Virus record (IMG/VR): IMGVR_UViG_3300021963_009201
Location: 62,001 to 126,000 of that record
Strand: one strand, 5' to 3'
DNA: 64,000 nt
From: a virus
Shown here in pieces: positions 47,739 through 63,907 of this stretch (position 1 is its first letter; each line of letters begins with the position of its first letter). A model generated the notes under the pieces. That model was not told the DNA's origin, made no database searches, and was given only the letters and a program-made list of their open reading frames with translations. Made by a program: the position numbers and the translations under genes.

Positions 47739-47749
47739 TTTTCACCTTG

Positions 47750-47824
47750 CGCCCCCTGAGGGACTCGAACCCCCGACCTAGCGGGTAGAAACCGCTTGCT
47801 CTAATCCGGCTGAGCTAAAGGGGC
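47750..47824 (-). tRNA. tRNA-Arg (UCU)
   Basis: Full cloverleaf on the minus strand: acceptor GCCCCTT/AGGGGGC, D arm GCTC-AGCCGGATTA-GAGC, anticodon stem AGCGG/CCGCT with loop TTTCTAC (anticodon TCT at the centre), variable AGGTC, T arm GGGGG-TTCGAGT-CCCTC, discriminator G. CCA is not encoded. It decodes AGA, a codon more common in AT-rich phage genes than in many hosts. The upstream gene's TAG lies within the tRNA's 5' end. Confidence 0.95.
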
Positions 47825-50342: not shown

Positions 50343-51176
50343 TCATACCGTAGAGAAACTATTGATAATTTTTACCATCATCTCTCGGGAGTTCATGCCG
50401 TAGGCATTACCTGCCTCAACGCAAAAATGGTCGAGAGTGTTACGGAATGTCGGATCTACTTCTTCGTTAAATCCTTCTCCATTCATTTGCGCTTTAGGGC
50501 TTTCCCATTTTGTTTCCAATATCTTTAAAAGAGAGAGTTTTTCCCACTCCTTAAAGTAGTACCGAACAGCGTCGGGATGGTTTGATTTAGATGCGCCAGC
50601 TGGGATCCCCCGTTGCATACAGTGGATTACCGTATCTTGGAGGTCTAGGTTCCAGCCTGAATTCCAAACCATATTATAAGCCTGCTGGACGCCTTCTGCT
50701 AGACTCCCGCAGGGCTCATAAATTTCGTGTACAGGATTGCAAAGGTTTGAGTTAAAGTATAGGTTTAAAAGTGGCAGCATAAAAACGCGGTCATCCCAAC
50801 CATACAATGGCTCATTCCTGCAATAAACACGAATTAAAACTGGATTATAGTGCTCATCAAACATCACGTAGTAAGTTGTCCAGGGTATAGGGAGATTAAA
50901 CCCCTCTACAGCGGTCCTACTATCTATAAAGTCTTTACGGGCAAACGCTAACTCTACATATTGTACAGAGGGTGGTCTTTCAAAGACTATGATACGTTGA
51001 TTATCGGAAATCCATCTTACAGCAGGAGGAAGAAAACCAAGATCTTGCCTACCGTGGCTGGTGAGACTACGGAATATATCCCCCGCAGATTTTTCTGGAA
51101 GAGGGATTGTACCGGCACTGTGGTATACACCACTTACTGTATCGGTTGATGAGTTAATTTTAAGTTCAATTTTCAT
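50343..51176 (-). CDS. E2-like protein (Prok-E2_D / PRTRC protein B type)
   Basis: 277 residues. Predicted ubiquitin-conjugating (E2/UBC-like) fold of the PRTRC-B family: FLPPAVRWI and VFERPPSVQYVEL, LPIPWTTYYVM, RVYCRNEPLYGWDDRVF, then LPLLNLYFNSNLC, which places the presumptive acceptor Cys at C146 after the LP-x-x-N strand. The C-terminal 120 residues are helical. It would accept the ubiquitin-like protein from the E1 at 59077-59859, although no biochemical data exist. The neighbour at 51173-52072 is a diverged paralogue, coupled by a four-base overlap. It ends the block before the MerR-like operator. Confidence 0.68.
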   Translation of the reverse strand: MKIELKINSSTDTVSGVYHSAGTIPLPEKSAGDIFRSLTSHGRQDLGFLPPAVRWISDNQRIIVFERPPSVQYVELAFARKDFIDSRTAVEGFNLPIPWTTYYVMFDEHYNPVLIRVYCRNEPLYGWDDRVFMLPLLNLYFNSNLCNPVHEIYEPCGSLAEGVQQAYNMVWNSGWNLDLQDTVIHCMQRGIPAGASKSNHPDAVRYYFKEWEKLSLLKILETKWESPKAQMNGEGFNEEVDPTFRNTLDHFCVEAGNAYGMNSREMMVKIINSFSTV

Positions 51177-52072
51177 TTTAATAAATCCCAGAAAAACTTA
51201 GAGAGCTCTACATGTCCGGCATCTTTAGTTCTGTCCAATAGTGCCGTATTTTTATCAAAGTAGTTTACAAGATCGCCAAATGTGCAGTCTCCAAATTGAT
51301 GAACGTCAAGTGCTCGATAAGAAAGCCCTAGAACTTCTTCCATGGATAGTTTAGCCCAAGAAGCAAAGAATTCATTTGAGTAAATGTGGCAACCCATTTC
51401 CTTTGGGAAGTATTCGGTAATCATGGTTGTAAGATCGTTATTAAAGGTATCAGTCCAAAACCCATTTATCGCATCAAGGACAAACGCAGAAAAATTATTA
51501 TATTTCTCTGGATCATTAATTGGATGGAAACTGCCCCAGCAGATCGAGGCGTCAGGGTAAATGTTGGTTACTGGCAATGCATAAAGCTGGTCCGAAAAAC
51601 TGTTTAGCGGACTAGGCCTGCAGAAAACCTTTACACTAGGTAAATGATCTTTTTCAAATCCACTGAAAAACCAGACAGTCCATGGAATATTTATATTAAA
51701 AGAGAAAGTTTCGGGGTAAGGTCTTTCGCATTCGCAACCATAGTCTGGATCACAGCTATCCCAATGTTCAAAATCTTCATCTTCTAATTCACCTTGAACA
51801 TCTTGATACTTAATAGTGCAGTTGAGTGGCGGACGCTCAACCGCTATGGTGGACATATCTCGGGAAATCCACCTAGTAACCGGCGGTAAGATGTCTGTAG
51901 AATTTTTGGTGTTTTTAAAAAAGTTCTTTGATACGTTAACCATATTGGAATTTGATTGTTCCATAATCCCGTATCTAAAGTCTACACCAAATTCTGATAT
52001 AGTTATTTCTTGTTCTATTTGTGAATTGGGTGTTTCAAGGTTTGATTCACCTGTATCAAGCGCTTGCGACAT
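51173..52072 (-). CDS. E2-like protein (Prok-E2_D / PRTRC protein B type), second copy
   Basis: 299 residues. Same plan as its neighbour: ILPPVTRWIS, VERPPLNCTIKY, NINIPWTVWFF, KVFCRPSPLNSFSDQLYALP, then VTNIYPDASICWG with candidate catalytic Cys C178. An inserted acidic, Cys-containing loop (DSCDPDYGCECERP) lies between strands and may bind a metal. The identity to the first copy is in motifs only, so the duplication is old and specialisation is likely. Both lie about 7 kb downstream of the E1/Ubl genes but in the same transcription direction. Confidence 0.7.
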   Translation of the reverse strand: MSQALDTGESNLETPNSQIEQEITISEFGVDFRYGIMEQSNSNMVNVSKNFFKNTKNSTDILPPVTRWISRDMSTIAVERPPLNCTIKYQDVQGELEDEDFEHWDSCDPDYGCECERPYPETFSFNINIPWTVWFFSGFEKDHLPSVKVFCRPSPLNSFSDQLYALPVTNIYPDASICWGSFHPINDPEKYNNFSAFVLDAINGFWTDTFNNDLTTMITEYFPKEMGCHIYSNEFFASWAKLSMEEVLGLSYRALDVHQFGDCTFGDLVNYFDKNTALLDRTKDAGHVELSKFFWDLLK

Positions 52073-53177
52073 GTTGGGTGTACACCTTACCTTCCGGTAT
52101 CTCGGTAGTCATAGGATTTGAAAAGACTTCTTTTATTCCTTTTGATTGTATTGAATCTAGGAAAATATCAAACGTCTTTTCTTTAGTTTCGTTATCGTAA
52201 AGTGATTCAACGAGTACTGTATTCGTACTTAAATCTATAAGTCGATAAACCATGTGACCAAAACCGATACGCATCGATTGAATTTCTAGGTCTTGAATGG
52301 GCAAATCGGAAGCTTCATCTGCGCATTCTACACTTGATACACTTAGCTGCATTGGTGTCCAAGTTTCTGGACTATAGTGCGAGCAGTTTTTTTGGTTTTC
52401 CCATGAACAAGGTGGGTTAAGGGAGTTTTTCTCTTTCTTTACAGACGGGCAAGCGCAACTATGCTGAAGTTTTGACTCTCGATCGAAAGTGTAATGGCTA
52501 CTTTGCGTAGTAACGAGCTCTACACTCACAGGCTTTGAGGCAGTAAAGTATTCACATGTTGGTTTTAAATTTCCGTCAACTTCAATAGCGGCACAGATAT
52601 CATTGACATCGAAGACGTCTTTCCCGGTCAGTGTGAAGCAATCAACTATGTAGGAATAGTTTATATGCTTTGCTTTTTGTCCTTTGGGCAAATATATTTC
52701 TAAAACAAGTTTTTCATTATCGTCAACATTGACTACAGCAGCACCAGATAGACTATGGTCTTCTGGTACGATAATGTCGCGTATTTCGCTAAAACAATCG
52801 TGTGCTGGCAGTACGAAAGCGTTATTGCCTTCTACATCATTTACATTGATAAATAGTCCACTACCATCTGTAAAATACTTTTCTCCGTCTGGCCCTGTAA
52901 CGATTTGGGTGCTACTAGAAAAGCCTGGTAGTGTTTGCTGTTCGTTTGTTGACTCGACATTAAAATCTTTTACAAAATCGCCACTTATAGTCGACTTTAT
53001 TAGTTGGCTCAATGTAAGGTCAAAGGAGTCTACTAGGCCCCCTGGAAGCTTCTGGGCTGCACTTACGTGCCAAGGCTGCTCGGAGTCATCTACGAGCTCC
53101 TCTGGCCCTACAGGGCCGTTTACGGGCTCGTCTGGTGTATTGCTGGTGTTTGTAAAGGTAGAAATAATGTCATCCAT
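52056..53177 (-). CDS. Unknown Cys-rich protein in conjugation-gene block
   Basis: 373 residues. N-terminal Ser/Pro-rich region (PDEPVNGPVGPEELVDDSE), then beta strands (KLVLEIYLPKGQKAKHINY, YIVDCFTLTGKDVFDVND), a Cys cluster (HSCACPS, PPCSWENQKNCSHY) probably binding a metal, and a C-terminal sheet (RIGFGHMVYRLIDLSTNTVL). Overlaps the E2-like gene start by 17 bases, which ties it to that unit. It may be a substrate or partner of conjugation; not recognised. Confidence 0.5.
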   Translation of the reverse strand: MDDIISTFTNTSNTPDEPVNGPVGPEELVDDSEQPWHVSAAQKLPGGLVDSFDLTLSQLIKSTISGDFVKDFNVESTNEQQTLPGFSSSTQIVTGPDGEKYFTDGSGLFINVNDVEGNNAFVLPAHDCFSEIRDIIVPEDHSLSGAAVVNVDDNEKLVLEIYLPKGQKAKHINYSYIVDCFTLTGKDVFDVNDICAAIEVDGNLKPTCEYFTASKPVSVELVTTQSSHYTFDRESKLQHSCACPSVKKEKNSLNPPCSWENQKNCSHYSPETWTPMQLSVSSVECADEASDLPIQDLEIQSMRIGFGHMVYRLIDLSTNTVLVESLYDNETKEKTFDIFLDSIQSKGIKEVFSNPMTTEIPEGKVYTQHVASA

Positions 53178-53178
53178 T

Positions 53179-53766
53179 TTAAGTCCAACTTAAAGAGAGT
53201 TTATCGTGGATAATAGCGTTTTGTGTTTCTAGGGTATTGCTAAGGTTGGTGAAATTTTCTTGAAGCTCTACATTGGCCTTCTTTTCTCGAATAAGGTCAG
53301 ACTGTAGAGTGGCGACAAGTTTATTCAGCCTGATTTTTTCATCATCATATCCAATGAATTCGGCGCCAAAAATTTTTGAAACACTGGTGAGACAGTAGCC
53401 GGATAGGGTTTGTTGGCTGCTGATTAGTGATTCTTGGATTTCGATTTCACTTAGGTTGGTGAGTCGATGTATCTTTATCCAATCAATAATTAGGCTTAGT
53501 TCTTGTACTGTGGTTGTTTTGATGGTATGTGCGGGGAGTATGTTGATGATTGAGCTGATGTTCATTACTTTTTCTGGAAACATTCCATAAATGTAATGTG
53601 TTTGATGTCTTTCGGTTATTTTTTCTGCTATTTTGATGTTTATTGTTCGTTGGTCTGAGTAGTATTTAAATCCCAGGAATTCAAAATAGTCTTCGTAAGA
53701 CATTGAGTGGTTTCTTAGATTTTCAATAATGACATTAGCTATTAAGAGTTGCTGCTTTTGAGACAT
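53179..53766 (-). CDS. Unknown helical protein
   Basis: 195 residues. Helices throughout with a C-terminal coiled coil (LNKLVATLQSDLIREKKANV, NFTNLSNTLETQNAII). Start overlaps the previous stop by one base. Possible scaffold; not recognised. Confidence 0.5.
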   Translation of the reverse strand: MSQKQQLLIANVIIENLRNHSMSYEDYFEFLGFKYYSDQRTINIKIAEKITERHQTHYIYGMFPEKVMNISSIINILPAHTIKTTTVQELSLIIDWIKIHRLTNLSEIEIQESLISSQQTLSGYCLTSVSKIFGAEFIGYDDEKIRLNKLVATLQSDLIREKKANVELQENFTNLSNTLETQNAIIHDKLSLSWT

Positions 53767-54050
53767 TATTTGCCCTTAAAGTTAATTTTGATATCATGAA
53801 TATTCACGATATCGTCTAGTAGTAGTTTGTAGACGTCGCCTTGGCAGACGGCAAGGGATGTCATTTCTGGGTGTATCTTTTTGGCTATTGTGTAGGCTTT
53901 GGATAGCAGTTCGATGCTTGTGTAGATTTGGTGTTCGCTATCGTCTACTACTAATAGTCCTGTGTTATTCTCCGCTAGGTGCAGCTGAGTTTTCTCCAGC
54001 CATGTTTTCCATGGGTTGTTCAGGCTCAGTATTTCCGTCTTCCACGACAT
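53766..54050 (-). CDS. Unknown small protein with an unusually long gene overlap
   Basis: 94 residues if ATG 54050 is the start; this lies 86 bases inside the upstream gene in another frame. No ATG, GTG or TTG closer to the junction exists until M64, which would leave 33 residues. Sequence after the overlap is a normal alpha/beta protein (GLLVVDDSEHQIYTSIELLS, SLAVCQGDVYKLLLDDIVNI). Either true overprinting or an unconventional start near 53965. Confidence 0.45.
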   Translation of the reverse strand: MSWKTEILSLNNPWKTWLEKTQLHLAENNTGLLVVDDSEHQIYTSIELLSKAYTIAKKIHPEMTSLAVCQGDVYKLLLDDIVNIHDIKINFKGK

Positions 54051-54351
54051 CGGTTGCGTACTCCAGTGTTTCTATCATAAGTTTACGCAATTCTTTTACT
54101 TTTCCTGTAAAAATCTTTTGCTTTTCTTCTGTCTCGGTTTCGAGCAGTGACATGAATGCTTCAATGAATACGGCTTGTTCTGCTAGTCCGACTGTTAGTG
54201 TTGCTAGTTGTTGTTCTAGTGTTTCTAGTTTAGCCGTAGAGTTCTGTAGTTCTTCATTGATATATCTTTGGGTGGACTGTAGTGCACCGTCTACTTTTGA
54301 GTAGAAAAAATCTAGGTCCGCTTGAGTTGCGTCTGGCGATTGTTCTTTCAT
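53965..54351 (-). CDS. Acidic coiled-coil protein
   Basis: 128 residues. Long coiled coil (RYINEELQNSTAKLETLEQQ, AVFIEAFMSLLETETEEKQK) and an acidic Pro/Glu-rich end (EDGNTEPEQPMENMAG). Overlaps the genes on both sides, by 86 bases downstream and four upstream. Likely a structural or scaffold partner; not recognised. Confidence 0.5.
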   Translation of the reverse strand: MKEQSPDATQADLDFFYSKVDGALQSTQRYINEELQNSTAKLETLEQQLATLTVGLAEQAVFIEAFMSLLETETEEKQKIFTGKVKELRKLMIETLEYATDVVEDGNTEPEQPMENMAGENSAAPSGE

Positions 54352-54953
54352 AGTGTCTCAAACCATTCTAGGTTGGAATTGGCATATGCGTTTAAGCATA
54401 AGTCAACTCTGTACGAGATTTCTGCTAGTTCAACTCTTGTTACTTTAATTGAATCTGTTGATAGTGGGCTTGACATGTCTGGTAGGAAAGCTCCGGACGA
54501 TGATTTGTTTGCTTTGAAGTGTCCGCATTTGAAGACGAATGATGTTTGGTCGTATTCGTTCTCGCCTTTGCGCCAGTGATGGGATTTGAATATGCGTGAT
54601 ATTGGTTTCCCATCTTGGCCTGTACCGCCACCGTAGAATACTATACCTTCGCTTGTTGGTACTCCAAGTTTTTGGTTGGCTGGGTAGATTACTTCTCCGC
54701 GCCCGCTAGTCACTGTTTGCAGGTATGTTGCAAATAGTATTGAGTCAACAAATGTTTCTGTGTGAGATTTCAGGGATGCGTCTTGCCCTGTTGCGCCAAT
54801 ATCTATACGGAATTTTCCGATTGACAGTATTGGCTTGATTGATAAGAACCCACTCGCCGATGGAGATTTGAACCATTTTTTGTATAGGTCTGGTATTATT
54901 TTCTTATCGTTTGTTTCTACTACTATTTGTTCTTCGTCAAAGTTCAAATCCAT
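54348..54953 (-). CDS. Unknown protein downstream of AAA+ ATPase
   Basis: 201 residues. Beta-rich with conserved-looking segments FLSIKPILSIGKFRIDIGAT, GIVFYGGGTGQDGKPI, SFVFKCGHFKANK. Starts eight bases after the ATPase stop, so it is probably co-translated with it. Might be the substrate or partner of the ATPase. No family recognised. Confidence 0.5.
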   Translation of the reverse strand: MDLNFDEEQIVVETNDKKIIPDLYKKWFKSPSASGFLSIKPILSIGKFRIDIGATGQDASLKSHTETFVDSILFATYLQTVTSGRGEVIYPANQKLGVPTSEGIVFYGGGTGQDGKPISRIFKSHHWRKGENEYDQTSFVFKCGHFKANKSSSGAFLPDMSSPLSTDSIKVTRVELAEISYRVDLCLNAYANSNLEWFETL

Positions 54954-54961
54954 TTATTTCC

Positions 54962-56542
54962 TTAAAAAGATGTCATAATTGGTTGCCGTTTTCCACCAGT
55001 TTTCTTTCCACCCAAGATGATCTCTGCATCTTTTAGTTGGTCGGAAGATGCCCAGTCCCATTCGGCTATTGCGCGTTTGTACATGTCGAGGACTGTTTCG
55101 CGGTGTTTGGTCCACATGCGATTTTGTTGTGTCGGTATTAACGATTCAATATCGTTTTGTTCGACTTTACGTTTGTCTTTTACTGAAATCTTAAATTTCG
55201 CTTCACGAATAAGCGCTTTTATTTCAGCGCCTGTGAATGTATCTGACTGTTCCGCAAGTGTCTGTAGGTTGAATCGTTCTGAGTCTGCGCCAAGGTGGAT
55301 TCCGAAGATGCCAATACGCTCTTCTAATGATGGGAGTCCGACAAACATGATTTTGTCAAACCTGTCAGCGCGTAACATCTCTGGGGAAATGTGTCCAATT
55401 TGATTTGCAGCTGCCATCAGTAGTACATTGTCTGGTAGTTCTTGGATGCCTGTGAGAAATTCACCATGTACACGAGATGTTGTACCGCCATCACCTTGGT
55501 AGTCTCCAACGGAGAGGTCGCGGCCAAGTTCGTCCATCCAGATTACTAGTGGGGCCATGGAGCGAATTTGAGAGAACGCTGCACGCATTCGTTTTTCTGA
55601 CTCGCCGATGAATTTATCCATCATTTGACTAATGCCGAACTTGGCGAGGTCTAGACCAAGTGTTGATGCAGTTGCTTCACATATCGCAGATTTGCCTGTA
55701 CCTGGTATTCCGACAAATAGTACGCGCCGAAGAGGCATAATATCGAGCTCTGCGGCTTCTACGGGGTTGTTCCAGGTCCAGACAACATTGTCGATGAGCT
55801 CTTTGGCGAGGTCAAGACCGCCGATGTCGTTAAGTGCAATTTTGGGGCGACGTATTTCAAGGATGCCGCCCTGTTTTACTCGATCCATTTTCCACTTAGC
55901 GATGAATTCCGGGTCGACAGTTTTACGCTCGTTTATGCTGAGCATAGAGACTTGGATAAACTCTTGCTCGGTAAGACCAAGTCCCGCTTTAACAACCTTG
56001 TTGAGATCAAGATCTTGATTGAATAGTATTTTATCTTTAGAAAAGATTGAAGCAGAAAGGAATGTTAACTCAGATTCGGTCGGGTATCCAGGATGACACA
56101 CAACAAAATGTTTTGTTAACTCAGGTGGCACTTCATCATTGCAGGAAAGCGCAATAAATTGGGTTTCAATATTTTCCAGGTTATTAGATAGCACAGCAGT
56201 GCGGTATTTGCTGTAAGCCGTGAGGAAAAGACCAATAAGTTTTTCTGCTAATTGGTGAGCATTTTCGAAAATAAAACATGCCTTAGCGTCCATTACATGG
56301 TCGATAGCCATACCTAGGTCATGAATTGGCGCCTCTTGTAAGTCGCCTGCTTCTGCACTACCTATCTCGCCAAGAATTGTCTTCCATGTGTTGTCGCGCC
56401 AAACAACTAGACCATTAACAGCGTCGAGCCTGTACACGTCTTTTGTGCTGACGCTACATATTATTTCTGTTATACGCTCAGGTTCTAGGGTGTTTACCCA
56501 GATTAGAGGGGAACCAATGCGGATGTGTTGGATCATTTCCAT
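54962..56542 (-). CDS. AAA+ ATPase, Ycf46-like
   Basis: 526 residues. N-terminal domain (about 1-160) resembles a degenerate P-loop fold (IRIGSPLIWVNTLEPERITE, ACFIFENAHQL). A classic AAA+ core follows: Walker A GIPGTGKSAI (278-287), Walker B PLVIWMDELGRDL, sensor-1 LLMAAANQIG, arginine finger LRADRFDKIMF and a helical lid (TGAEIKALIREAKFKI). This two-part plan is that of Ycf46/FtsH-like remodelling ATPases. Located in the same transcription block as the ubiquitin-like system, it could unfold conjugated substrates, but that link is inferred from position only. Confidence 0.8.
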   Translation of the reverse strand: MEMIQHIRIGSPLIWVNTLEPERITEIICSVSTKDVYRLDAVNGLVVWRDNTWKTILGEIGSAEAGDLQEAPIHDLGMAIDHVMDAKACFIFENAHQLAEKLIGLFLTAYSKYRTAVLSNNLENIETQFIALSCNDEVPPELTKHFVVCHPGYPTESELTFLSASIFSKDKILFNQDLDLNKVVKAGLGLTEQEFIQVSMLSINERKTVDPEFIAKWKMDRVKQGGILEIRRPKIALNDIGGLDLAKELIDNVVWTWNNPVEAAELDIMPLRRVLFVGIPGTGKSAICEATASTLGLDLAKFGISQMMDKFIGESEKRMRAAFSQIRSMAPLVIWMDELGRDLSVGDYQGDGGTTSRVHGEFLTGIQELPDNVLLMAAANQIGHISPEMLRADRFDKIMFVGLPSLEERIGIFGIHLGADSERFNLQTLAEQSDTFTGAEIKALIREAKFKISVKDKRKVEQNDIESLIPTQQNRMWTKHRETVLDMYKRAIAEWDWASSDQLKDAEIILGGKKTGGKRQPIMTSF

Positions 56543-56549
56543 TTTAGTC

Positions 56550-56780
56550 CTAAAAAGTAAGTTGTATATCGGTTTCGATATTTGAATCTTTAGCCCACTG
56601 GTAAAGATTGGTTTTTTGATTTGGGGTAGATGCCCTATAATACCTTATGAAACGGTAGTTATTGTCTTTATAGAATATCCCTGGTGGGAACCTAGCGCTG
56701 TCTTGAGGTTTTGTTAATACGGAAACGTTTGTAGTTCCAATCATAGTGGTGTACATTCCGTAGTATAGGGTTTTATCCAT
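56550..56780 (-). CDS. Unknown small basic protein
   Basis: 76 residues from ATG 56780 (an earlier start at 56831 would overlap the upstream gene by 59 bases). Sequence rich in Tyr and Arg (FYKDNNYRFIRYYRASTPNQ) with beta strands (YTTMIGTTNVSVLTKP). Starts 8 bases inside the upstream gene. Lies just before the AAA+ gene. Not recognised. Confidence 0.45.
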   Translation of the reverse strand: MDKTLYYGMYTTMIGTTNVSVLTKPQDSARFPPGIFYKDNNYRFIRYYRASTPNQKTNLYQWAKDSNIETDIQLTF

Positions 56781-57300
56781 ACGAATAATCGCTTTCCCTG
56801 TGGTGACCTTTTTCTTCTCTACTTGAGGCAATTTGAATTGCTTGTACTTTATCGAGAAGTTTTCTTGCGGATTCAGAAGCTATTCTGGCTGCAATTTCTT
56901 GAGCTTCTGCGAGCTCTATAATTGCCTCTAACGTTGAAAGTTCTATGTATTCTTTTTCTGCAGCAGCCATTGCATTTGCTTCGCGTTCTTGGGCATTCTT
57001 TGCGGAAGTTCCTAGCGCAGTTTTATATTTACGCTTGTATCTACCTTCTGCCAATTTGTAGTGGGCGCGCGCAATACCAGCAAATCTTGCAATCCTACCA
57101 TAGTTGTTTGAAGTGCGTGCGACTAAAGACATTAAATCTTGAACAGTTAGATCTACATCTGAACTTGTAGGCATCTCTATAAAAGAAGATCCTGCACTGC
57201 CTGGATCTGAAACTATTAAGGAGATTATTTGCTCTAGCTCTGGGCCAAGAACATCTATGAGTATCTGTTCTGCGCGATGTATTGGTGAGTCAGGGTTCAT
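56773..57300 (-). CDS. Unknown helical protein
   Basis: 175 residues. Long alanine- and glutamate-rich helices (AQEREANAMAAAEKEYIELS, IIELAEAQEIAARIASES) suggesting a coiled-coil rod; N-terminal acidic part (PIHRAEQILIDVLGPELEQI). GGAG lies before the ATG. Not recognised; possible scaffold protein. Confidence 0.5.
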   Translation of the reverse strand: MNPDSPIHRAEQILIDVLGPELEQIISLIVSDPGSAGSSFIEMPTSSDVDLTVQDLMSLVARTSNNYGRIARFAGIARAHYKLAEGRYKRKYKTALGTSAKNAQEREANAMAAAEKEYIELSTLEAIIELAEAQEIAARIASESARKLLDKVQAIQIASSREEKGHHRESDYSYG

Positions 57301-57370: not shown

Positions 57371-57679
57371 TCAGACGAAGAGCTCGTCTACTTCGGCGTT
57401 GGTAAGCTTCTGGATGTCTTCGACCTCATGGTCAATGACACGGCTACCGGTGATGCGAGCTGGGCGGAAAGACTTAATCGCTGACTCGCGATTAGGTGCC
57501 TCTACCCAGAAAGTACCAGTGATTTCGTAAACGCTTGAACCGTTGTTGCGGGTCCAGTTAGCCTTCATGGCTGCAGCAGAAGGGACGGTGATCTTAAGAG
57601 CCTTAGCAACCTCTTTGGTGCTCTTGCCCTTTTCGAACATCGAGACAGCCTTCTCTCGCTTTGCGTCGGTTAATGCCAT
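57371..57679 (-). CDS. HTH protein, abundant-type
   Basis: 102 residues from ATG 57679 (GGAG 10 bases upstream). An HTH of homeodomain/resolvase type (REKAVSMFEKGKSTKEVAKA, LKITVPSAAAMKANWTR) is followed by a beta domain (SSVYEITGTFWVEAPNRESA). GC-rich codon use, unlike most neighbours, points to high expression. Likely a DNA-binding regulator or a nucleoid-like protein. Flanked by 11-bp hairpins on the downstream side. Confidence 0.6.
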   Translation of the reverse strand: MALTDAKREKAVSMFEKGKSTKEVAKALKITVPSAAAMKANWTRNNGSSVYEITGTFWVEAPNRESAIKSFRPARITGSRVIDHEVEDIQKLTNAEVDELFV

Positions 57680-57711
57680 TTTAAATTTCTCCTTGTGCAT
57701 TTTATGCAAAA

Positions 57712-58755
57712 TTATTGTATATTCTGATTATCGTAAAAGTTAGAGTTTGCGTTATTCAAAAGGCGTGTAAGTTCAGACAACGAATATTTTATCCATTCTT
57801 TTGGATTATTATTCGGAGTCAAACTAAACCAGCATGATTCCATTGGTGTAGATGTCGAATTGCCGCGATAGTGAACTACGCCTTTTGGAATAACGGCCAT
57901 ATTATTTTGCAGGTGCGTCTTAACTAGACACGACCAACTCATCCAAGCGCTATGTAATAGATCCCTATTACTGTATAGCAAATAGTGTCTGAATTCGTCG
58001 TAGGTAAGACAACCTATATCATACAAGTCTAAAAGATTTTCTGCAACTAAATTCCAGTATAGTTGTTTGGAGCTCCAGTTATCTCTAAAAGACATTGCAG
58101 TATTTGTAAACCTAATCCAACTACCCGAATGCTTTAGTCTGTCTTTTGTTGATAGTATAATTTCTATAGTTTCTTCGCCAAAGATAGACATAAGATCGGC
58201 GTGGATATAGCTTACGGAGCCACTTGCGGAAGATCGAATAGCATCTGTAAGGTTGCCATTCCATGTTTTTGCTTGTGGCCATTTTCTCTCAATTTGTTCA
58301 AAAGTAGAAACATTTTTTTCTACTAAAAACAAACGAGAGTAATCGATAGAAAAGTTTTCTATCAATTCTTGAGGTTCAACGGATAACTCGGGTAAGAGTA
58401 TACAATATCCGGAACTAAGATCTACATCTATTGATTTTTTTTCTTGAAGTGAGATCTGTCTTTTTATGGAGACATTATAGGAAGACTCTTCAATGAAGTC
58501 AATAGGTACGGAAATGCCTAAAAGGTCTAGACCTTTTCGTGTGGGCACCCATATATCTGCCCTTCTTCCCCTTTTACTTCTGGGGTGCAGGTCTTGCTTT
58601 CTTTTTATATATCTATTAGAGAGCAGTTCTATTCTTGAAGGCAGAAATTCGTGTTGAGTAACTAGTTTTGCGCTTCTTAATTCTGTAGAAGTAACTGCTT
58701 TATTTGACGCAATAAACCTAAGGAGTTTTTTTGCGCTAACGGAAATTTTATCCAC
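57712..58755 (-). CDS. Winged-helix protein with unknown C-terminal domain
   Basis: 347 residues, GTG 58755 with GAGG five bases upstream. Residues 1-90 look like a winged helix (KLLRFIASNKAVTSTELRSA, RRADIWVPTRKGLDLLG). The remainder has alternating strands and helices (VSYIHADLMSIFGEETIEII) with an SAM- or nucleotide-binding-like rhythm, but no signature. It follows the Ubl gene after a hairpin and precedes the HTH gene. May regulate the conjugation operon or phage transcription. Not recognised. Confidence 0.55.
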   Translation of the reverse strand: MDKISVSAKKLLRFIASNKAVTSTELRSAKLVTQHEFLPSRIELLSNRYIKRKQDLHPRSKRGRRADIWVPTRKGLDLLGISVPIDFIEESSYNVSIKRQISLQEKKSIDVDLSSGYCILLPELSVEPQELIENFSIDYSRLFLVEKNVSTFEQIERKWPQAKTWNGNLTDAIRSSASGSVSYIHADLMSIFGEETIEIILSTKDRLKHSGSWIRFTNTAMSFRDNWSSKQLYWNLVAENLLDLYDIGCLTYDEFRHYLLYSNRDLLHSAWMSWSCLVKTHLQNNMAVIPKGVVHYRGNSTSTPMESCWFSLTPNNNPKEWIKYSLSELTRLLNNANSNFYDNQNIQ

Positions 58756-58830: not shown

Positions 58831-59076
58831 TTAGCCCTTTTCGCCAGCGCGACGATGGAACTCAATGTTGTCACCAGACTGGATGACATAGTTGTCGTCC
58901 AGTTTTTCCTTACCCTTGTAAGCGTTTGCGTCGCCTGGGATGCCCCACATCGACCCAAACTGCTGACGAAGTTCAGAAACGCTCTTACCTACGTGATTAC
59001 CGGGATTGTTGTAAACACCGTAGCGGATCTGTGCTGAGCCACCGCTCTGCGATCCTGGGGATGATGCTTGCTGCAT
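58831..59076 (-). CDS. Ubiquitin-like (beta-grasp) modifier protein, PRTRC protein C-like
   Basis: 81 residues. Ser/Gly-rich N-terminus (QASSPGSQSGGSAQI), then a compact domain with RYGVYNNPGNHVGKSVSELR and the end DNYVIQSGDNIEFHRRAGEKG. A last strand followed by a short Arg-containing tail and terminal Gly is how MoaD/ThiS/ubiquitin-like modifiers end, and the ending F-x-x-x-A-G-x-K-G recalls PRTRC protein C. Start codon directly adjoins the E1 stop (no gap); the Shine-Dalgarno lies in the last E1 codons, so modifier and E1 are tightly co-translated. The Gly is already C-terminal, so no maturation cut is needed. Confidence 0.72.
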   Translation of the reverse strand: MQQASSPGSQSGGSAQIRYGVYNNPGNHVGKSVSELRQQFGSMWGIPGDANAYKGKEKLDDNYVIQSGDNIEFHRRAGEKG

Positions 59077-59859
59077 TTATGCTCCTTGGTATACTAATTC
59101 GTTAACGTTAACGCTTCGGTCAAAACTCTGGGCTAACCCGGCTTCTAAGTCAAAGAAATATTCACAATTAGAAGCCGGATCATTACCTTCAACAATGACC
59201 ATATTAAACCGTGCCAGCAATGCTGCTGTTACGGCCATATTCGTGGCAAGAAGCTGCGTCCCTCCTTCGAGTTCAGCCCTCTCTTGACACGAAAGTTCAC
59301 CAGGGTTACGGTCAGGAGGATTTACGTACTCCTCATGCCAAACCGCAGGGTGATCTACCAGCTCAATACCATCACGCTTAGCGTAGTGGTACGTAGAGCC
59401 AAAGTACTTTTCATCATTTCCGCCCAAAAATACGTCGACATTATTAATTTTAGAGGCCGCATCTATTAGCTGTTTCCTTGCTTTGAAGTTATCAACTACA
59501 GCAAAAATGATATCTTTTTCGACAATTAAGTCAGAAGCAGCTATTTTTCCTGCCGGCTTAGAGCCATCTGCTTCCTTGTCATCATCTTTTGCCCCCTCAA
59601 CTTTATCGACTACCCAATATGGCATAGGGATTATAAACGTTTTGTCAAACTGGGGGACAAGTTCTGAAGCGAGAACTTCAGCTTTATTGCCTACGCCATT
59701 AAAAAACTGACGTTGCTTATTCTTTGCTTCGAAGTTGTCACCATCAACTATGACTAGCGCTGACCCTGGCATTCTCCATTCTAGAGTCATAGCGATAGAC
59801 CTAGAAAGCAGGGAGCCAATACCGCCTGCGCCAACGATAATTACTCTGCGCTCTTCCAT
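59077..59859 (-). CDS. E1-like ThiF/MoeB-family adenylating enzyme
   Basis: 260 residues. Rossmann-type ATP site GAGGIG (10-15), then LVIVDGDNFEAKNKQRQFF with the D-x(n)-N-x-x-R-Q motif typical of E1/ThiF enzymes, and IIFAVVDNFKARK (second acidic motif). ELSCQERAELEGGTQ presents Cys C191 in the position of the E1 catalytic or crossover cysteine; TNMAVTAALL is the conserved Asn/Ala helix. It would adenylate the C-terminal Gly of the Ubl encoded next to it and form a thioester. An acidic 20-residue loop (DDDKEADGSKPAG) is inserted after residue 90. Overlaps the zinc-protein gene by one base. Confidence 0.88.
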   Translation of the reverse strand: MEERRVIIVGAGGIGSLLSRSIAMTLEWRMPGSALVIVDGDNFEAKNKQRQFFNGVGNKAEVLASELVPQFDKTFIIPMPYWVVDKVEGAKDDDKEADGSKPAGKIAASDLIVEKDIIFAVVDNFKARKQLIDAASKINNVDVFLGGNDEKYFGSTYHYAKRDGIELVDHPAVWHEEYVNPPDRNPGELSCQERAELEGGTQLLATNMAVTAALLARFNMVIVEGNDPASNCEYFFDLEAGLAQSFDRSVNVNELVYQGA

Positions 59860-60431
59860 TAAAACTCCTCGTAATTTATGTGAATATAGTCATTTGTTGC
59901 TGCTGACGACAAACTTTGAATGACTAATTCATCTTGGTAATAATCTTCACATACTGTAATACCTGCACTGATTTTAGGGTTCTTTATGTAATGAATTACA
60001 AAATTACGCAAGGGTTTGCAGTATTCAGTGTATTGGTACGAGCATGTAAAGCAGTCATTGGAAAATGAGTCTTGATACACGTTTTCCCAAATATCTTGAG
60101 GGACTTCTTCTGTATCATCCCAGCTCACTGGGTATGAACATGTGCAATCCATCATAGACTCTTCGCAGCAAATCATTAAAGGATCACTTGATGCGTAAAA
60201 GTCTTTAATCTGTTCTATAACAACTGTTGGTGCAGTAGCAACAAAAAGATCCCAGTCTTCTTCAGTAAAACCAACGCCACACGATTCGCATGAGTGTTCG
60301 TTAAATTCGACTAGATCTTTGCAGTTGGGATTCAAACATTCAACTAGTAGAGCACTCTCGTTATGGGAGCTTGATGCTATATCTATATTGCAGTAGGGAC
60401 AATTGGGAAGATCTTCTTCCATTTCACTCAA
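59859..60431 (-). CDS. Cys-rich zinc-finger protein of the conjugation operon
   Basis: 190 residues, acidic. Zinc knuckles: NCPYCNIDI and VECLNPNCKDL, then CESCGVGF, followed by a second region with ICCEESMMDCTCSY and FSNDCFTCSYQYTEYC. Thus two or three treble-clef or ribbon modules are likely. Co-translated with E1 (TAATG). Such proteins next to E1/E2 genes are candidate E3-like adaptors or substrates. Not assigned to a family. Confidence 0.62.
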   Translation of the reverse strand: MSEMEEDLPNCPYCNIDIASSSHNESALLVECLNPNCKDLVEFNEHSCESCGVGFTEEDWDLFVATAPTVVIEQIKDFYASSDPLMICCEESMMDCTCSYPVSWDDTEEVPQDIWENVYQDSFSNDCFTCSYQYTEYCKPLRNFVIHYIKNPKISAGITVCEDYYQDELVIQSLSSAATNDYIHINYEEF

Positions 60432-60481: not shown

Positions 60482-61753
60482 TCAGCCTTTTCCCAGCGCA
60501 TCACCGACTTTATCTGCTGCGCAGTAAAGTTCGAGTTTATCTTGAGAGTTGTTTTTGGTCCATAAGTATATTGGTTTTTGAACGCTTCGTTCTATGTCGA
60601 TGTCGTTGGAAAACAGCCCCATTGCTTTGCGGTGTGCTACTACATTGGGTACAGTTTCGTTATCGAACATAATATACTGATGACAGGACAGGCATCGACG
60701 CTTATCTTTGTCTACTTTGACAAACTTCACGGAACAAAACGGACAATGTGTATCGTTTTCGCTGATGCAGGCGATAATAATATTATCTTTGATAGGGGGA
60801 AAATCTTCAGGAAGCGTAACTTCTTTAGCTTGAGGTACAGTGCTGTAGCCTGTAGTTGAAGTTCCACCCGCACCGTACCCGTAGGAATAGTCGGTATAAC
60901 CGTATGAGCCAACGCCAGTTTTTCCGTTAGCTGTAGGTGTGTATACTTTCTTGGAAACTTTACCCATCCATACATCAATATCTGGCGAAGGGTCAGATTT
61001 TGGGAATGAATCAAATACCTGCCCTGGGTCAAGAGAAAATACTCCACCAGGAGTTTGTAACTCAATATGGTATTCTGTAGCATTATTGTTAATATTCTTC
61101 CGCCAACCATAGGTTATATGAATACCCGGAAAATCTGCCTGATCTTTATGGTCAGTGCCGGAAGCAAATGCTGGCATGTTTGGGTGGCTGTGAGCGGAGC
61201 CGACTAGGTAGACATGTTCCGGCTTCTCTTTAGCTATAGACTCGTGGTCATAAGCACAGTCAGCCGCCGTGTTTGTTTGGTCGGGAACTAAAACTCCCCA
61301 TCCGTCGCCTTCGTTTTCGAGACCAAAAAAGTTTGGATCATAAGTAAGGAGTACTATCGACTCGGTGCCGTGCTTGTCTTCGACAGCCCTAAAGAAATCG
61401 TCCATTTTTTGAACCATTTCATAAGGAATTCTAGGAAGCGTATACTCTGCGCTAGTAGAAAGAGTTTCCAAGTTAAGTTCTTGTTCTGTTGCTACAGTAA
61501 CAGAACGGGAAATAATAGTGGAGACAACTTTGAAAATTGTCGGCCTTGTACTAGTCTTGGTCGTCTTATTAGTGTCTGTATAGCTATATTCTTCTACCGT
61601 CATTAAGTAGTAGAAGTTATAGCCATGGGCTTCAATATGTTGGCAAATATCATCTACATTTCCAACGAAGCATGGCATTCCATTTGGTAGGTCAAAATAA
61701 GTTAATTCTTCCAGCGGAATTAACTCAAACTTATCTTCTGATACTTCTGTCAT
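60482..61753 (-). CDS. JAB/JAMM-domain isopeptidase with zinc ribbon
   Basis: 423 residues. The JAMM motif is intact: HSH (188-190), P-N-M-P-A-F-A (x7), S198-x-x-D201, with E131 (ESIVLLTYDP) a candidate for the remote Glu. It would hydrolyse Ubl-protein isopeptide bonds. The N-terminal 110 residues form a separate alpha/beta domain (PLEELTYFDLPNGMPCFVGN). A linker rich in Gly/Tyr (GTSTTGYS) leads to a C-terminal zinc ribbon HCPFCSVKF...RRCLSCHQY (about 330-365). Lies between the zinc protein and the E2-zinc fusion. PRTRC protein A is a comparable JAB-containing neighbour of ThiF. Confidence 0.85.
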   Translation of the reverse strand: MTEVSEDKFELIPLEELTYFDLPNGMPCFVGNVDDICQHIEAHGYNFYYLMTVEEYSYTDTNKTTKTSTRPTIFKVVSTIISRSVTVATEQELNLETLSTSAEYTLPRIPYEMVQKMDDFFRAVEDKHGTESIVLLTYDPNFFGLENEGDGWGVLVPDQTNTAADCAYDHESIAKEKPEHVYLVGSAHSHPNMPAFASGTDHKDQADFPGIHITYGWRKNINNNATEYHIELQTPGGVFSLDPGQVFDSFPKSDPSPDIDVWMGKVSKKVYTPTANGKTGVGSYGYTDYSYGYGAGGTSTTGYSTVPQAKEVTLPEDFPPIKDNIIIACISENDTHCPFCSVKFVKVDKDKRRCLSCHQYIMFDNETVPNVVAHRKAMGLFSNDIDIERSVQKPIYLWTKNNSQDKLELYCAADKVGDALGKG

Positions 61754-61776: not shown

Positions 61777-63279
61777 TTAAGAAAGTACTAGTTTTGCGTA
61801 GCAGCTTTTGCAAACTGGCTGCGAATAGTTATCGTCTAAATATTGAATATTTTCTTTATAAACAAGAGATTTACATTGGCAAATAGAGTATTCTGTTACG
61901 CAGTCTGAGCAAAGTTTAGCTAAAGACATTTCCTGGGTAAAAGGATCAAGGTGTTCAATCAGGGCAAGATCCTCGACTGCTGTAGGGTATGAACAGTTAG
62001 AGCAATGCTCAACTTTGGTACAAGCTACGCACATATCGTTACTGATTAACGATTCTTCATCTTCATGAAAACTATAACATTTCTGACACTGAAACAAAGT
62101 CACACATGAAGAGCAGTGAAAGTTTTCATTGTAAAAAGCCATGTCGGCATAATGCTTATGAGTGTCACATGAAACGCAAATAGCTAATTTTTCTTCTGCG
62201 CACCAAGTGCATGCATAACCGTTTTCAAAGCTTATAACATTTGAAGACCCATAGATTTCTCCGCAAAGTTTGCACGACGTAATGTGATCAGAAAACGGTA
62301 TAAGCGGCTTATGTTCTTCTGCTGTTTTTATCGTTTTGCTTTCAGCACTCCTAAAAGCGCTTTGAATCTTAGTCAATACATCTTTATTTGACGGAGGCTC
62401 AAGATCTTCTCGAATAAACTTTTGATAATTTTTTGGAGTATTTTGATCTCCGTAATATGCGCGGTACTTGCCATCTACCGCCATTCTCAATGTGTAGTAA
62501 GAACCATCTTCACCATCGTAGTGCTTCGTCTGATCATCAATATCTTTTACAATGACGGGAATCCAAAGGCTACCATCTAGGGTCCAATCAGCGCCTTCTT
62601 GGGATGATTTACCTTCCCAAGCCTCAGGGTCCCAGAGGTAATTATATTCGATATTGTTTTCATATTTCTCGGCGTAAAAACGTGGGCCATCTGTTTCTTT
62701 CATGTTGGCGTCATTATATGCTTCAGTGCCGCCAGCGCGCTCAACGAGATTTGCTATTTTTTGACCAAGGTTCAAGTGTGATATAGATGGTTTATTGTGA
62801 TAAAGACATATCCAGCCGACACCATTACCGTTGCCATAGCCTTTGCAATTTAAGTTTGGCAAGTTCACATGAAATAAAACTTGATCAAGACTAGTTATAG
62901 GTGTCGGAGAGTAAAAGTGTCTAGCACCAAAAAATTCATTATCAACAAAATCGCCAATTACAATACGATACGGCATTGCAAGGTCGTAGTGGACGGCTTC
63001 GGTATCCCCTTCGGAACCGCCCCATATGACCCTATATACGCCTGGAGTATGCTGAAATACTACCTGACAATGCCCAAGGGCTTGACGGATCATTAACGTG
63101 CCCGATCCGTCAAGCGGCAATATCCCGGTATCAAAAAATGCTATATCACTTATTGACTTAAAAACAGCATTCAACTCTTTTGTTTCAGTATTTTCTATAT
63201 TACCGACAACAATAGAATTTTTAACTCCCTGATCACTTAATTCAATAAAGGAACCTATTTTTGGGTCAACATATGACAT
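61777..63279 (-). CDS. E2-like domain with long C-terminal zinc-finger array
   Basis: 500 residues. N-terminal E2-like part: FFDTGILPLDGSG, CQVVFQHTPGVYRVIW, AMPYRIVIGDF, ARHFYSPTPITSLDQVLFHV then NLPNLN and GVGWICLYHN, which parallels PRTRC-B/Prok-E2_D proteins, with C158 the presumptive acceptor. After a region of about 150 residues come at least seven CxxC pairs (TSCKLCGEI, ACTWCAEEK, CVSCDTHKH, HCSSCVTL, QCQKCYSF, CVACTKVEHCSNC, LCSDCVTE, SICQCKS, VCKSCYAK) at about 328-498, as in RING/LIM-type treble clefs. A fused E2-E3-like enzyme is the simplest reading. Gene heads the E2-JAB-zinc-E1-Ubl set. Confidence 0.72.
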   Translation of the reverse strand: MSYVDPKIGSFIELSDQGVKNSIVVGNIENTETKELNAVFKSISDIAFFDTGILPLDGSGTLMIRQALGHCQVVFQHTPGVYRVIWGGSEGDTEAVHYDLAMPYRIVIGDFVDNEFFGARHFYSPTPITSLDQVLFHVNLPNLNCKGYGNGNGVGWICLYHNKPSISHLNLGQKIANLVERAGGTEAYNDANMKETDGPRFYAEKYENNIEYNYLWDPEAWEGKSSQEGADWTLDGSLWIPVIVKDIDDQTKHYDGEDGSYYTLRMAVDGKYRAYYGDQNTPKNYQKFIREDLEPPSNKDVLTKIQSAFRSAESKTIKTAEEHKPLIPFSDHITSCKLCGEIYGSSNVISFENGYACTWCAEEKLAICVSCDTHKHYADMAFYNENFHCSSCVTLFQCQKCYSFHEDEESLISNDMCVACTKVEHCSNCSYPTAVEDLALIEHLDPFTQEMSLAKLCSDCVTEYSICQCKSLVYKENIQYLDDNYSQPVCKSCYAKLVLS

Positions 63280-63282
63280 AAT

Positions 63283-63681
63283 TTAACTTTCGTTTAAATT
63301 CAAAAACTTATTTAAGGCTTCATCAATTTCTTCATCAAAGTCGCCAAAAGCCCAAGCTAACCAGCTCGGGTCAGATTCGGCTAGATCAAGAATTTCCTTG
63401 CGTTTCCTTAAAACGTCTAATGGCTCAAGAAGTTCGGCAACCCGGCTTAAACCTTTAGATAAACCAATAAGCTCTTCCTTGTTGTGGCTAATGTGCATAA
63501 TTGGAACAATTATTGGATTGCCATCTAAGGTAAACTTATTAACTATGTTATCAATTCGGGTTTCCAGCGCCTCGATTTGAAGATCTATTTCTTTTTTTGC
63601 GAAAGAAGCGCTGGAAGCGTTAAAGCGGAAAGTGTCAATAGGTTTTGACGCTTTATTATTTTCAAGTGGTTGATGTGTCAA
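63283..63681 (-). CDS. Unknown helical protein
   Basis: 132 residues. Coiled-coil-like N-terminal half (AKKEIDLQIEALETRIDNIV) and an acidic helical end (DLAESDPSWLAWAFGDFDEE). It precedes the E2-zinc gene by three bases and overlaps its upstream neighbour by 20, so it belongs to the same unit. Not recognised. Confidence 0.5.
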   Translation of the reverse strand: MTHQPLENNKASKPIDTFRFNASSASFAKKEIDLQIEALETRIDNIVNKFTLDGNPIIVPIMHISHNKEELIGLSKGLSRVAELLEPLDVLRKRKEILDLAESDPSWLAWAFGDFDEEIDEALNKFLNLNES

Positions 63682-63907
63682 ATCTAAATCCCTTGTGATT
63701 TTGACTTCGTTTCTGCAGGTAGTCTACTATTTCTCTTACGGACCACCATGCAGTGCATAGTGCAACTATGCTTCGAGTAATAAGTCTTATGATGTATTCT
63801 TCCTTAGTGCCATTAAATGGGTTTGTGCCGCCTGGGCCCTGAACGTCAAAGTAGATATTATCTAAGAAAAGTTGAATTTGCTTTACTGTTTCGGTTTTTT
63901 GTTCCAT
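63662..63907 (-). CDS. Unknown small protein at head of the conjugation unit
   Basis: 81 residues from ATG 63907. Helical with an aromatic core (TVKQIQLFLDNIYFDVQG, LCTAWWSVREIVDYLQKR). No Shine-Dalgarno is obvious. It is the first complete gene of the minus-strand block inside the window; the promoter may lie beyond the right edge. Not recognised. Confidence 0.5.
   Translation of the reverse strand: MEQKTETVKQIQLFLDNIYFDVQGPGGTNPFNGTKEEYIIRLITRSIVALCTAWWSVREIVDYLQKRSQNHKGFRFDTSTT

Follow-up and report, generated by a model that had tools for sequence, protein, structure and literature searches.

In the window (the whole stretch of 64,000 nucleotides analyzed here, taken from an IMG/VR virus record of 190,033 bases), we found a cassette of genes that, judged from sequence and structural models, looks like a complete ubiquitin-like protein-tagging system. 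Its E2-like protein with a C-terminal zinc array, E2a-Zn (E2a below), very likely works in a ubiquitin-like pathway, and is probably the main E2 of a conjugation pathway that the phage encodes and that is akin to the PRTRC (type 6d) systems of plasmids. The genes of the cassette follow in their order on the minus strand, with the evidence for each call in brackets.

63662..63907, minus strand: p81, small protein, first gene of the cassette (synteny)
63283..63681, minus strand: p132, directly upstream of E2a-Zn (synteny)
61777..63279, minus strand: E2a-Zn, E2-like core plus C-terminal zinc array, 500 aa, ATG start
60482..61753, minus strand: JAB/JAMM metalloprotease (JAB), 423 aa, with a C-terminal 4-Cys zinc site (Prok-JAB, hhalign)
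59859..60431, minus strand: Zn190, Cys-rich 190-aa protein (ORF list, synteny)
59077..59859, minus strand: ThiF-type E1, 260 aa (Pfam ThiF, E = 1.5e-10)
58831..59076, minus strand: predicted ubiquitin-like modifier (Ubl), 81 aa, ending in RRAGEKG (AF2 beta-grasp, structural alignment)
57712..58755, minus strand: p347, closest relatives only (synteny)
57371..57709, minus strand: p112, HTH-like, closest relatives only (Pfam scan, synteny)
56773..57300, minus strand: p175 (synteny)
56550..56831, minus strand: p93 (synteny)
54962..56542, minus strand: AAA+ ATPase, 526 aa, conserved in the cassette (PF00004, E = 4e-25)
54348..54953, minus strand: p201, conserved in the cassette (synteny)
53965..54351, minus strand: p128, conserved in the cassette (synteny)
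53766..54050, minus strand: p94, conserved in the cassette (locus comparison)
52056..53177, minus strand: p373, closest relatives only (locus comparison)
51173..52072, minus strand: E2b, second E2-like protein, 299 aa, motif LYALPVTNIYPDASICWG (paralog profile, 5.5e-43)
50343..51176, minus strand: E2c, third E2-like protein, 277 aa, motif VFMLPLLNLYFNSNLCNP (paralog profile, 7e-55)

The genes are tightly packed, with gaps mostly below 80 bases, several overlaps and one 588-base gap before p373. The window also carries a tRNA-Arg (tct) gene at 47749-47824. The AAA+ proteins of the window and its relatives have a flexible tail, often with an aromatic or basic tip (VSWKI, AFKW, KGNW), which is a possible docking motif.

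The initial annotation had described a 500-residue reading frame with Cys158 in GVGWICLYHN (sequence context GNGVGWICLYHN), and both the frame and the cysteine were confirmed. The following features were located within it.

62665..63174, minus strand: E2-like core, residues ~36-205 (AF2 model, joint profile alignment)
62854..62856, minus strand: codon AAC of Asn142, predicted counterpart of the HPN-type active-site Asn of E2s (alignment)
62806..62808, minus strand: codon TGT of Cys158, predicted thioester cysteine (alignment)
61801..62274, minus strand: zinc array, residues 336-493, nine CxxC pairs and a CxC (sequence pattern)

Homologues of E2a, 40 distinct sequences including the window's own, lie in the same gene order on viral contigs, which indicates that the reading frame is a real gene; their overall identity to the E2a of the window is 35-54%. 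In the E2a alignment of 33 rows, Cys158 is kept in 33/33, and so is Cys145, a residue absent from the earlier description. A single-sequence scan of viral contigs with E2a gave no match. With the AAA+ protein as query, the same contigs yielded 16 loci, almost every one of which carried the cassette, and the E2a alignment search then gave 46 loci on 45 viral contigs of up to 268 kb, several of which are near-duplicates. Wherever the contig was long enough, the order p132-E2a-JAB-(Zn)-E1-Ubl-AAA+-p201-p128 was constant, and p81 preceded p132 in most relatives. One 268-kb contig, IMGVR_UViG_3300042868_009074, carries two divergent copies of the cassette (L005/L039 and L008/L059), reflecting either joined phages or a real duplication.

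By tblastn with E2a, no match was obtained in 50,697 phage records or 72,556 plasmids. In a scan of approximately 85,000 bacterial and archaeal genomes just one contig matched, indicating that the cassette family is essentially viral. This contig (L068, PXAT01000157.1; 10.4 kb) belongs to an Ectothiorhodospiraceae MAG, carries p132-E2-JAB-Zn-E1-Ubl and is probably a phage contig binned with the MAG. Regarding the host, a WhiB-family gene (Pfam E = 4e-14) is present upstream of the cassette in the phage of the window and in most relatives; in the former it lies at L084:823-1395 (G000), just upstream of the right end of the window. WhiB proteins are characteristic of Actinobacteria and of the phages that infect them (PMC8612146), and the large phages that carry the cassette therefore probably infect Actinobacteria.

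The C-terminal tail of E2a (residues 320-500) contains 20 Cys. At least seven CxxC pairs had been claimed for it; the array is indeed present, and the count was too low, since nine pairs were found (336/339, 357/360, 368/371, 389/392, 398/401, 417/420, 426/429, 457/460 and 490/493). When tails were shuffled with their composition kept, the mean was 2.1 pairs, and nine were reached in 1 of 20,000. The pairs form repeated CxxC-x15-29-CxxC units with short linkers between them, and their conservation is modular: Cys 336, 339, 357, 360, 398, 401, 417 and 420 are kept in 28-31 of the 33 rows, making the sites 336-360 and 398-420 near-universal, and the others vary.

The array had also been called RING-like, LIM-like and treble-clef-like, and these terms fared differently. 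The RING spacing (C3HC4 cross-brace) fails in the protein of the window, and even a permissive pattern was matched by just 2/40 sequences, so that this reading was dropped. The treble-clef/LIM-like description is weakly favored by the sequential CxxC pattern and by low-scoring structural matches to FYVE, PHD and LIM domains (Z ~3), whereas the strict LIM pattern (C-x2-C-x16-23-H-x2-C-x2-C-x2-C-x16-21-C-x2-C/H/D) was found in 0/40 E2a sequences; a long-linker LIM variant fits residues 336-401. A treble-clef-like array of sequential CxxC/CxxC type is weakly supported, and no more can be said of its class.

The E2a of L046 lacks the array. In L055 and L064 the E2 ends in EEGPF, and the array follows immediately in the -1 frame. 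This indicates that the core function can do without the array, which is an add-on to a constant E2 core. In L055:8929-10895, and at the same positions of L064, the E2 stop codon falls inside CCTTTTTAG, and the -1 frame is open into the array. This arrangement is identical in two separate metagenomes and may reflect either a gene that is truly split or a -1 frameshift that is programmed.

As for its job, binding of substrates or partners is the likeliest, and a built-in substrate or E3-like module in E2a is plausible; whether the array chooses substrates is, in our estimate, an even bet. It may instead bind nucleic acid or a replication partner and place the E2 near DNA with no E3-like role; this reading is compatible with the E2 core, and we regard it as rather unlikely. 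Arrays vary in length and site number, as such a role would allow, and 27/40 distinct E2a sequences (for example L050:8929-10569 and L046:8908-9990) end in PF, often in an acidic context (DEEPF, ESPF, EEGPF) like the C-terminal tip of SSB. On the other hand, the E2a of the window has no PF tail, and the array gave no match to a DNA-binding family.

For the E2-type core that had been proposed for E2a, the evidence from direct comparisons was weak. E2a itself matched no family in Pfam, NCBIfam, PHROGs or PADLOC and gave no profile match above the cut-off of Prok-E2_D (PF14460). All 33 members searched against Pfam gave scattered weak matches alone, mostly to zinc domains, and a profile search of the PDB gave no E2 and weak matches that were again mostly to zinc proteins. 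The AF2 model has a mean pLDDT of 83, with strands at residues 60-124 that come before Cys158. Structure prediction and fold comparison, the check suggested initially, gave a divided answer: E2 chains recur among the top-ranking rows over residues 41-236 of the model (Z 2.7-3.5, rmsd ~6), yet at these low Z values they are tied with unrelated folds. Foldseek against the PDB gave nothing significant, with LIM rows at E = 0.02. In BFVD, A0A7R7G2H5 (E = 3e-10) and A0A6J5MFC0 (E = 3e-5) are structural matches to E2a; both are viral and otherwise unlinked to the cassette. Direct alignment of E2a with plasmid PRTRC_B by hhalign was weak (E = 0.024) and was equalled by 2/100 column shuffles, and is unconvincing as a stand-alone proof.

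The decisive evidence for the E2 call came from the paralogs, which form a bridge in sequence from E2a to PRTRC_B and Prok-E2_D. When the profile of the E2a core was compared to all ORFs of the loci, weak matches were obtained to genes downstream of the AAA+ gene. These genes make up the paralog family. In the window its members are E2b and E2c, neither of which appeared in the initial annotation; in 14/14 relatives with enough sequence (among L002-L017) they stand in tandem as a pair. Some of these relatives are near-duplicates, and one of them, L004, has a triplet. The three tandem E2-like paralogs at L004:14179-16849 bring the number of E2-like proteins in that phage, with its E2a, to four. 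A profile built from the paralogs alone found E2a members at 1.2e-5 and 7e-4 and PRTRC_B at 0.0045; the PRTRC_B profile found paralogs of the E2b/E2c type at 1.7e-6. Across the three separate-profile searches, no unrelated ORF of the set appeared at E <= 10. These searches are free of joint-profile bias, though the paralog set was gathered iteratively. The E2a closest to the paralog profile is that of L068.

In a joint alignment, which leans towards agreement because its profile took in all three groups, the equivalent of Asn142 is kept in 40/40 E2a, 53/54 paralogs and 14/14 PRTRC_B, and that of Cys158 in 40/40, 52/54 and 14/14, respectively. One paralog (L004:15959-16849) clears the Pfam cut-off for Prok-E2_D (35.7 bits versus 25), and E2b stays under it (E = 0.008). 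Since a paralog passes this cut-off and E2a does not, we name E2a a divergent relative of Prok-E2_D instead of filing it as a member. An E2 role is the best reading of E2a and is supported, indirectly, by the profile links through the paralogs, the Asn...Cys pair and the neighboring E1, JAMM and Ubl genes.

The same joint alignment revealed that in E2a alone an insertion (roughly 8-17 residues) separates Asn142 from Cys158, adjoining the invariant Cys145, so that Cys158 could instead belong to a disulfide or to a metal site. E2a might then be a zinc protein with a degenerate E2 fold and a structural or scaffolding role, in which C145, C158, His137 and His161 bind metal, and the real E2s would be E2b and E2c. 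The insertion in the active-site loop, and an invariant C145 that is missing from the relatives of E2a and sits beside the invariant C158, speak for this, as do the plain Asn...Cys loop of the E2b/E2c-type proteins, some of which match Prok-E2_D, and the many other zinc sites in the E2a chain, JAB and Zn190. However, Cys158 aligns with the catalytic position, Asn142 is conserved, His161 is conserved less strictly (~30/40 in the joint alignment), and E2a adjoins JAB and E1 in the PRTRC order B-A-ThiF. We consider the scaffolding role unlikely.

The partners expected of an E2 are encoded next to it. The modifier, like E2a, was recognized by no family in the libraries searched; the best structural rows of its model (Z 8-9) were FUBI, TtuB, ubiquitin, MoaD and RAF Ras-binding domains, all of the same superfold. 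GEKG is present in 26/26 aligned modifiers and forms the final residues in 23/26, and the other three carry two extra residues (GEKGSL, GEKGNI and GEKGSK). These extensions fit trimming by the JAMM protease, whose catalytic residues E131, H188, H190, S198 and D201 are each kept in 26/26. The protease matched Prok-JAB just under the Pfam cut-off (E = 1e-4) and PRTRC_A by hhalign (92.3%, E = 5e-7). Its 4-Cys site (337, 340, 354 and 357) is invariant, and a Zn190-like region is found inside the JAB protein in many relatives, showing that zinc modules recur across the cassette. In the E1, the motifs GxGGxG and NxxRQ and Cys191 are kept in 21/21 aligned rows, and hhalign matched it to PRTRC_ThiF (98.8%, E = 4e-17). 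PADLOC gave only weak E1-E2 matches to the E1, and tblastn with the E1 gave no match in 50,697 phage records and one weak match in 72,556 plasmids. ThiF and ubiquitin-fold proteins with a terminal Gly are also common to the thiamine and molybdopterin pathways, and TtuB and MoaD are among the best matches above, but a sulfur-carrier or cofactor ThiS/ThiF pathway, in which the Ubl would end as a thiocarboxylate and no protein would be conjugated, is very improbable, as no sulfurtransferase gene was recognized among the cassette genes searched, and as neither a JAMM protease nor E2-like proteins, for which there are three genes per phage, are known to act in such pathways.

With E2a taken as the main E2, the anatomy of the cassette suggests the following pathway, all enzymatic steps of which are predictions from sequences and models. 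Where the 81-aa modifier is made with residues beyond its final Gly, the JAMM protease would remove them. This Gly would be adenylated by the ThiF-type E1, which would then pass the modifier to its own Cys191, from which it would move to Cys158 of E2a, and perhaps also to the Cys of E2b and E2c. E2a would transfer the modifier to target proteins, the likeliest being host proteins whose alteration would serve the phage, or factors of phage replication or assembly. The tandem LIM-like array may serve as a built-in module for binding substrates or partners, shortening or replacing the need for a separate E3. The JAMM protease would also reverse conjugation, and the AAA+ ATPase probably acts on tagged proteins by remodeling or extracting them. 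A more specific version, in which E2a as a single-chain E2/E3 tags selected host proteins and the AAA+ ATPase hands these over for unfolding or to the actinobacterial 20S proteasome of the host, is improbable; if true, it would mean that a virus takes over the protein turnover of its bacterial host with a second tag beside Pup.

Most bacterial ubiquitin-like systems known so far are cassettes of plasmids or defences against phages. A conserved Ubl-E1-E2-JAMM set in large phages would reverse this picture and prompt the question of which proteins the phage tags. With three E2-like genes but a single E1 and a single modifier, the cassette offers a small natural system for the division of labor among E2s. 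The zinc array of E2a, which some phages have, some lack and some encode in another frame, amounts to a natural experiment on the origin of an E3-like module.

The premise that eukaryotes keep E2 and RING E3 separate was too strong: BIRC6 and UBE2O are eukaryotic E2/E3 hybrids, whose single chain has both E2 activity and an E3-like function. They differ from E2a in having unrelated accessory domains and no zinc array of its type. The companion statement, that no phage enzyme of this layout has been described, agrees with the searchable full-text literature, in which we found neither such an enzyme nor a description of the cassette. The word 'ubiquitin' is absent from the main text of a 2026 jumbo-phage review and of the 2020 huge-phage paper.

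Among known systems, row 6d of the operons of Iyer et al. (2006) comprises a Ub-like protein, a JAB, an E1-like protein, an E2-like protein and a helical protein (PMC1779556); in our own reading, from gene content, this is what later databases name PRTRC, for which we compared 14 plasmid regions. Both PRTRC and the phage cassette have separate genes for an Ubl with a conserved C-terminal Gly, a JAB, an E1 and an E2, and the order B(E2)-A(JAB)-ThiF(E1) corresponds to the phage order E2a-JAB-(Zn)-E1. The E1 and JAB match the PRTRC profiles but fall far short of the TIGR cut-offs, and the best partner of the phage Ubl is PRTRC_C, a weak profile match (E = 0.003). Unlike PRTRC, the phage cassette is phage-borne and has three E2-like genes, the zinc array of E2a, an AAA+ ATPase and an Ubl placed after the E1. 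PRTRC_F and PRTRC_E profiles gave no match to p81, p132, p175, p201 or p128, no ParB-related protein was recognized among the cassette genes scanned, and a PRTRC_B search of viral contigs found none. Because it has no recognizable helical or ParB partner, and adds three E2-like proteins, the array and the AAA+ ATPase, we regard the cassette as a relative of PRTRC and not a member.

Cap2 and Cap3 of CBASS likewise use E1, E2 and JAB activities for ubiquitin-like conjugation through a single C-terminal Gly, and in Cap2 the E1 and the E2 are fused in a protein whose conjugation target is the cGAS-like nucleotidyltransferase itself (PMC10097602). In contrast, the E1 and E2 of the phage cassette are separate genes, the predicted modifier is a true ubiquitin fold, and no CD-NTase was matched among the cassette genes scanned. 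The Caldiarchaeum ubiquitin operon is alike in its compact Ub-E1-E2 set, its zinc helper protein and a JAMM (Rpn11) that trims pro-ubiquitin; its small RING E3 is a separate protein of the cross-brace type, whereas the phage has a fused, sequential LIM-like array (PMC5654768). No sequence link between this operon and the phage cassette was found. Given the known PRTRC, Cap2 and archaeal operons, the cassette is notable for being phage-borne and for the fusion of its E2 to zinc sites.
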